From positions 30,711 through 94,710 of the forward strand of contig JANTGS010000001.1 in NCBI GenBank assembly GCA_024762795.1: DNA of 64,000 nucleotides. The letters are read 5' to 3'. Position 1 is the stretch's first letter; each line of letters begins with the position of its first letter. Source of the stretch: Flavobacteriaceae bacterium. GTDB lineage: Bacteria > Bacteroidota > Bacteroidia > Flavobacteriales > Flavobacteriaceae. The notes under the pieces were generated by a model. It saw nothing but the letters and a program-made list of their open reading frames with translations, did no database searches and was not told the origin of the DNA. This document shows, piece by piece, positions 34,689 to 34,817 of this stretch. Position numbers and translations under genes: made by a program.

Positions 34689-34718
34689 ATGAGAAATTAT
34701 GTGCTAAATACTGTGGTT

Positions 34719-34785
34719 GCTATGGCAAGATTAAAGTGAGTCATAAAAAAAAAGGGGGATTTGCTTTGATTTGCCATAGCTTTTT
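34719..34785 (+). terminator. Strong hairpin plus T-tract between murG and ftsQ
   Basis: GCTATGGCAA (34719-34728) pairs with TTGCCATAGC (34771-34780), extended by ATTAAAG/CTTTGAT, then TTTTT. Confidence 0.72.
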
Positions 34786-34817
34786 AATCAAGTAGTTGGT
34801 TTACAATAAAATATAGA

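Follow-up and report, generated by a model that had tools for sequence, protein, structure and literature searches.

How does a bacterium begin the peptide of its cell wall building block when its division and cell wall (dcw) cluster encodes neither MurC nor a complete MurD, two textbook essential enzymes and antibiotic targets? The question is raised by a stretch of 64,000 nt (the window) from a Flavobacteriaceae draft genome. The first-pass annotation of this DNA had reported that murC is missing between murG and ftsQ, that murD is truncated, and that the cluster consequently lacks both of the first two Mur ligases. On re-reading the sequence we arrived at the same picture. The neighbors at the former murC site are murG and ftsQ, with a gap of 129 bp between them since ftsQ begins at a GTG codon at 34818, and murD has been reduced to its C-terminal domain (hereafter murD-C). 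The coordinates given for a 16-aa open reading frame (ORF), for two hairpin arms and for a T run in the gap were exact as well. The locus is organized as follows:

29128-30597, forward strand: murE, intact, above the curated cut-off
30602-31837, forward strand: mraY, intact
31838-31852, forward strand: junction from the mraY stop to the murD-C start, where murD residues 1-261 are gone
31853-32401, forward strand: murD-C, a free-standing ORF of 182 aa for the MurD C-terminal domain
32408-33613, forward strand: ftsW
33597-34688, forward strand: murG, intact, stop codon at 34686-34688
34689-34817, forward strand: murG-ftsQ gap of 129 bp in place of murC
34689-34739, forward strand: 16-aa ORF of the first-pass annotation (ATGAGAAAT...AAGTGA, translation MRNYVLNTVVAMARLK), not considered a gene
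34700-34785, forward strand: conserved RNA element with leader TGTGCTAAATACTGTGG, hairpin GCTATGGCAA...TTGCCATAGC and purine loop AGGGGG, followed by TTTTT
34719-34728, forward strand: 5' arm of the hairpin, GCTATGGCAA
34771-34780, forward strand: 3' arm of the hairpin, TTGCCATAGC
34781-34785, forward strand: TTTTT run 3' of the hairpin
34818-35543, forward strand: ftsQ, immediately 3' of the RNA element, with a GTG start

Such an arrangement could be an artefact, with murC and the 5' part of murD dropped from one metagenome assembly, and the window's genome is indeed a draft of 208 contigs that is 93.5% complete. However, MurC is lacking in all six genomes of the window's genus, which share the order mraW-ftsL-ftsI-murE-mraY-murD(C)-ftsW-murG-(no murC)-ftsQ-ftsA-ftsZ (in G001 the cluster lies on two contigs) and in which the murD-C ORF is exactly 549 bp long in every species. 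A search of the genome collection with the murD-C alignment returned 24 loci, 21 of them in Flavobacteriaceae-type assemblies that include the cultured strains Lutimonas halocynthiae CECT 8444 and L. saemankumensis DP2N0-7 and the closed MAG chromosome CP070731. Together with the window, 22 sequences were compared. In all 21 assemblies murD is truncated, and murC is absent wherever a contig spans murG-ftsQ; the closed, single-contig genome G030 has the same dcw layout. Since these independent assemblies agree, and since murD-C is under purifying selection (see below), an assembly artefact is rejected as having a practically negligible probability.

In a tree of five concatenated dcw proteins, these genomes form one clade, apart from seven MurC-positive relatives. 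The simplest reading is therefore that one ancestral deletion took murC and murD residues 1-261, while all other dcw genes stayed. The losing lineage comprises the window's genus, Lutimonas and allied MAG lineages, and both the clade-wide loss and its anatomy are firm. Two points had escaped the first-pass annotation: that the whole clade shares the loss, and that what is left of murD is a conserved gene. The MurC cut-off was passed by 51 of the 60 genomes in the search of relatives, and by 271 genomes in a family-wide sample of 301 (each at least 80% complete). By our own count, the best MurC match in 14 genomes of this sample is at the level of Mpl or weaker. Clade members are among them, as are some MAGs that are incomplete and a few genomes, G278 and G170 for example, that are candidates for a loss of their own. 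Of these, G278 (a closed 3.5 Mb genome) has only an Mpl-level match and its congener G012 has murC, so that a recent independent loss of MurC is possible.

The missing genes might also have moved, possibly in strongly diverged form, to another place in the genome. No protein of the window's genome exceeds the cut-off of the MurC model TIGR01082 (335.1 bits); the best match, at 223 bits, comes from an Mpl-like gene that lies on a different contig. In this genome, a Mur-ligase middle domain occurs only in MurE, FolC, the Mpl-like ligase and MurF, and a MurD-type middle domain (ATPase, PF08245) was not found elsewhere in it. Searches of the clade genomes with MurC, MurD and the shared domain PF08245 gave MurE, MurF, FolC and the Mpl-like ligase, plus, in two genomes, proteins of 883-886 aa that we named cyanophycin synthetase by their length and domain. 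No further member of this group is present in the single-contig genomes G030 and G062 or in both Lutimonas isolates, and among G030, CP070731 and the two cultured strains the only extra Mur ligase is the cyanophycin synthetase of L. halocynthiae. We should note that such searches require detectable similarity and that many genomes of the clade are not complete. Within the reach of similarity, relocated MurC and MurD are rejected, and we consider relocation very unlikely. The genome search that the first-pass annotation had suggested, for murC, a relocated murC/murD pair or Mpl, has returned an Mpl-like ligase and neither murC nor a full murD. Our literature search found no description of a loss of MurC and MurD in these bacteria in openly available papers.

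The part of murD that stayed behind covers positions 267-440 of the MurD model, which has 441 in all, and in structure comparisons it matches the last third of MurD. The ORF begins at an ancestral internal Met, contains the C-terminal domain PF02875 (46.2 bits) and has neither the N-terminal UDP-binding domain nor the central ATPase domain (PF08245) of MurD. It is intact in all 22 species with 49 invariant columns, and its dN/dS of 0.04-0.10 between close pairs lies in the range of murG and murE. An AlphaFold model computed from the clade alignment (mean pLDDT 78.8) was matched by Foldseek to the crystal structure of Pseudomonas aeruginosa MurD with an E-value of 2.4e-11.

H301, D317 and N322 persist in 22 of 22 sequences, R302 in 21 and N271 in 20; N271, R302 and D317 presumably contact ATP in MurD. 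The residues described as D-Glu contacts (PMC3527612) have decayed, as T321 is kept in 2 and lost in 20 of the 22 sequences, K348 is kept in 10 and lost in 12, S415 is kept in 11 and lost in 11, and all three are replaced in the window's protein. On the evidence of these alignments, murD-C is a conserved gene under purifying selection with decayed D-Glu contacts. It cannot act as MurD alone and is probably an exapted pseudo-ligase domain, now a subunit with a docking or regulatory role and no catalysis of its own. A free-standing C-terminal-domain ORF of murD was also observed beside mraY in two Bacteroidales MAGs (L091:10001-10549 and L092:6767-7315), where most catalytic residues of the domain are conserved and murC is intact; this is an independent split or loss.

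The former murC site is occupied by the hairpin that the first-pass annotation had described as strong and terminator-like, and the hairpin itself is real. It is more stable than dinucleotide shuffles of the same sequence (z -4.5 for the whole gap; z -3.4 for the element, with 0 of 200 shuffles as stable) and recurs at the same place in 17 of 17 loci compared, also in the closed genome G030. Across the clade, the element consists of a leader GTGCTAAATACTTTGG, the arms ACTATGGCAA and TTG(T/C)CATAGT and a loop of the GAGGGG type, with minor differences between genomes, and its flanking bases are invariant. In the stem, 95.3% of the cells are paired, both partners are exchanged in six pairs, and none of 500 shuffles reaches its covariation score. 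At one place in the stem, 11 species have a G-U pair and seven a G-C pair, as expected for an RNA and not for a DNA palindrome. A covariance model found strong matches (E-value of at most 1.7e-10) in clade genomes only and there only at the murG-ftsQ site, one per genome, which rules out a repeated or mobile element. The element was not found in relatives that have murC, and Rfam contains no family above its gathering score (only a chance miRNA match with an E-value of 1.9). By these comparisons it is a single-copy, clade-specific, structured and conserved RNA element. The loss as a whole withstands the refutation test proposed with the first-pass annotation, because relatives retain the hairpin and because separately assembled genomes and isolates lack murC too.

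The importance attached earlier to the 16-aa ORF, with the suggestion that its translation could influence hairpin formation, did not survive the comparison. The ORF is open only in the window's genome and in its sister species G003, its start codon is lost beyond these two, and the bases beneath it are conserved as nucleotides and not as codons. In many loci, a frame that starts with GTG, VLNT(L/V)VTMA, runs across the conserved leader (34700-34730 in the window). A short leader peptide in this frame (VLNTLVTMA...) was rejected, because the codons CTA AAT ACT show no synonymous changes, which points to nucleotide and not peptide conservation.

The features that bear on the terminator label are mixed: a stable stem is followed by a U run, but the loop is long, the lower stem is rich in A+T, and a simple terminator scan did not call the hairpin. 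A strong terminator is doubtful because the bottom of the stem, the 5' leader and the loop are held at the level of primary sequence, which a plain terminator does not need. For the locus as a whole, one might read the hairpin as a mere intrinsic terminator and the murD remnant as a slowly decaying pseudogene, in line with the TTTTT run and the decayed D-Glu site. With an ORF intact in 22 of 22 species, its low dN/dS, and a leader, lower stem and purine loop conserved base by base, this reading is highly unlikely. The element is probably an attenuator-like cis control upstream of ftsQ, and would set the amount of ftsQAZ message made after murG.

Because MurC and MurD are lost and a catalytically worn MurD fragment is kept under strong selection, the clade probably has a different way of beginning its wall building block. 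MurE, MurF, Ddl, MurI and the Mpl-like ligase are kept. The last of these, encoded in the window's genome at L139:7098-8453 (contig C29), is the sole remaining ligase of the MurC/Mpl type; no Mpl match was found in G005, a genome that is 90% complete. It has the three Mur-ligase domains, and its closest solved structure is Psychrobacter arcticus Mpl. On the mpl model TIGR01081 it reaches 166.2 bits, below the cut-off of 388.7, and it scores higher, also below the cut-off, on the murC model. The Mpl motif (S/T)AFFDKRSK (PMC3060825) is missing and replaced by SSPIDxRPKF or a similar sequence in the clade and its relatives. Bacteroidota Mpl-like ligases have their top, sub-cut-off score on the MurC model and may be annotated automatically as MurC, hiding a loss. 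A remodelled Mpl and a remodelled MurE were both rejected: the Mpl-like ligase, with 3 diagnostic sites against 23 relatives, gave no such signal, and MurE, at positions where its relatives are fixed, has not changed in the clade.

Mpl is known for loading tripeptide. The P. arcticus enzyme does so at 260 per min and in vitro also, if slowly, couples UDP-MurNAc with L-Ala-D-Glu (1.4 per min) and with L-Ala (0.7 per min) (PMC3060825). The known role with tripeptide would suit a clade that imports peptidoglycan peptides and loads the tripeptide without any de novo first step, as would the conserved epimerase homologue described below, of a type typical of murein-peptide use. Against such scavenging, MurE, MurF, Ddl and MurI are all kept, and MurE, which would be idle if the substrate were tripeptide, is under strong constraint (dN/dS) and unchanged in the clade. 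A constrained, unchanged MurE implies that UDP-MurNAc-dipeptide is still formed, and hence that L-Ala or L-Ala-D-Glu is loaded and not the tripeptide. Lutimonas is moreover grown in culture, so that the supply would have to come from ordinary media. We therefore consider scavenging unlikely.

In the scheme that we favor, peptidoglycan would still be made: the Mpl-like ligase would attach the first residue or residues to UDP-MurNAc, either L-Ala or ready-made L-Ala-D-Glu, and MurE and MurF would then complete the stem. We hold this bypass with moderate confidence. It draws on the likeness to P. arcticus Mpl, on the activity of that enzyme with the two short substrates and on the rescue of an Escherichia coli murC mutant by multicopy mpl (PMC3060825); against it count the weakness of this activity, a clade ligase that is not remodelled and the lack of an Mpl match in G005. 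In a rival scheme, the Mpl-like ligase would act as a plain MurC that adds L-Ala, with an unrelated ligase adding the D-Glu made by MurI. The retention of MurI and the rescue of the murC mutant speak for it, but among the Ddl-like and ATP-grasp_4 proteins no clade-wide candidate for joining D-Glu was found, and we see this rival as possible yet doubtful. The only specific ATP-grasp candidate, an ATP-grasp_4 protein of 390 aa (E-value 1e-63; L205:2150-3322 and the end of L204), occurs in the genus members G005 and G000 (the window's genome) and was not found in the Lutimonas genomes searched; it is a possible amino-acid ligase. No new ligase adjoins mpl, murI or the epimerase gene in their neighborhoods.

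The epimerase homologue may set the stereochemistry of Glu. It was found in 10 of 11 sampled genomes without MurC and MurD and in 4 of 12 others (p = 0.009, a value that ignores shared ancestry, as clade members are not independent). The clade proteins form one orthologous group, with rsmI and/or osmC as the usual neighbors. Alignment to the closest structure, PDB 3IJI, and to 1JPD places the catalytic KxK, the second Lys, the metal ligands and a D(M/L)DG motif. The scores, 138 of 343 bits on the L-Ala-D/L-Glu epimerase (AEE) model and 210 of 400 on the DgcA model, are both below the cut-off. The link between this putative epimerase and the loss of MurC and MurD is suggestive only. The retention of MurI argues against a route that relies purely on epimerising L-Ala-L-Glu. 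In its most specific form, the bypass would have a free L-Ala-Glu dipeptide made off the nucleotide, given its D-Glu configuration and then transferred whole to UDP-MurNAc by the Mpl-like ligase. This would be the chief de novo pathway around MurC and MurD, with the MurD domain as a non-catalytic subunit and the new RNA element regulating the division genes from the former murC site; we offer this only tentatively. For the broader explanation, which joins ancestral loss, a retained murD-C, the RNA element and an Mpl-like bypass, and which is the best we have, we judge the chances to be even.

A second lineage of the order Flavobacteriales bears on the bypass. G046 and its congener G059, from another family and with genomes of 1.7 Mb (loci L146 and L137 in G046, L138 in G059), lack MurC and MurI and have an Mpl-like ligase. 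For G046 the reading covered the dcw cluster and every Mur-ligase domain; MurD is wholly gone there, and MurE and MurF are still present. That the Mpl-like ligase was kept through an independent loss speaks for a bypass by way of it, without proving it. The epimerase homologue of this lineage carries a Tat-like signal.

The first two peptide steps hence seem replaceable, as at least 22 species in a lineage of free-living marine bacteria, cultured ones among them, lack both enzymes and keep the rest of the division and wall cluster. Automatic annotation can overlook such a loss, since MurC is the model on which the Mpl-like gene gets its top score. With Lutimonas strains in culture, wall chemistry and labelling can put the question directly to the test, and the free-standing MurD domain illustrates in nature how a domain can outlive the enzyme it came from.

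Compared with known systems, the clade ligase shares with Mpl an E[GA]DEY...RxKF region resembling the Mpl signature, but it falls far below the mpl cut-off, lacks the exact motif and is the only MurC/Mpl-type ligase left. The putative epimerase has the catalytic residues of the L-Ala-D/L-Glu epimerases and DgcA of the enolase superfamily, yet stays below every curated cut-off. An altered D-Glu step in the making of peptidoglycan precursors is already known from the Xanthomonas MurD2/MurL pathway, which still uses Mur ligases for both steps, whereas no Mur ligase is left here for those two. With MurD itself, murD-C shares the domain PF02875, the dcw place between mraY and ftsW, the predicted fold and 53-64% identity to the C-terminal domain of full flavobacterial MurD; it differs in that the N-terminal and ATPase domains are absent genome-wide and T321, K348 and S415 are not conserved. 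Among the structure matches was also 8R6S chain Q, which we take to be the MurE-like subunit of the plastid-encoded RNA polymerase. It is an earlier example of a Mur-ligase fold put to structural use within a complex, although it derives from another Mur ligase and works in an RNA polymerase of a eukaryotic organelle.
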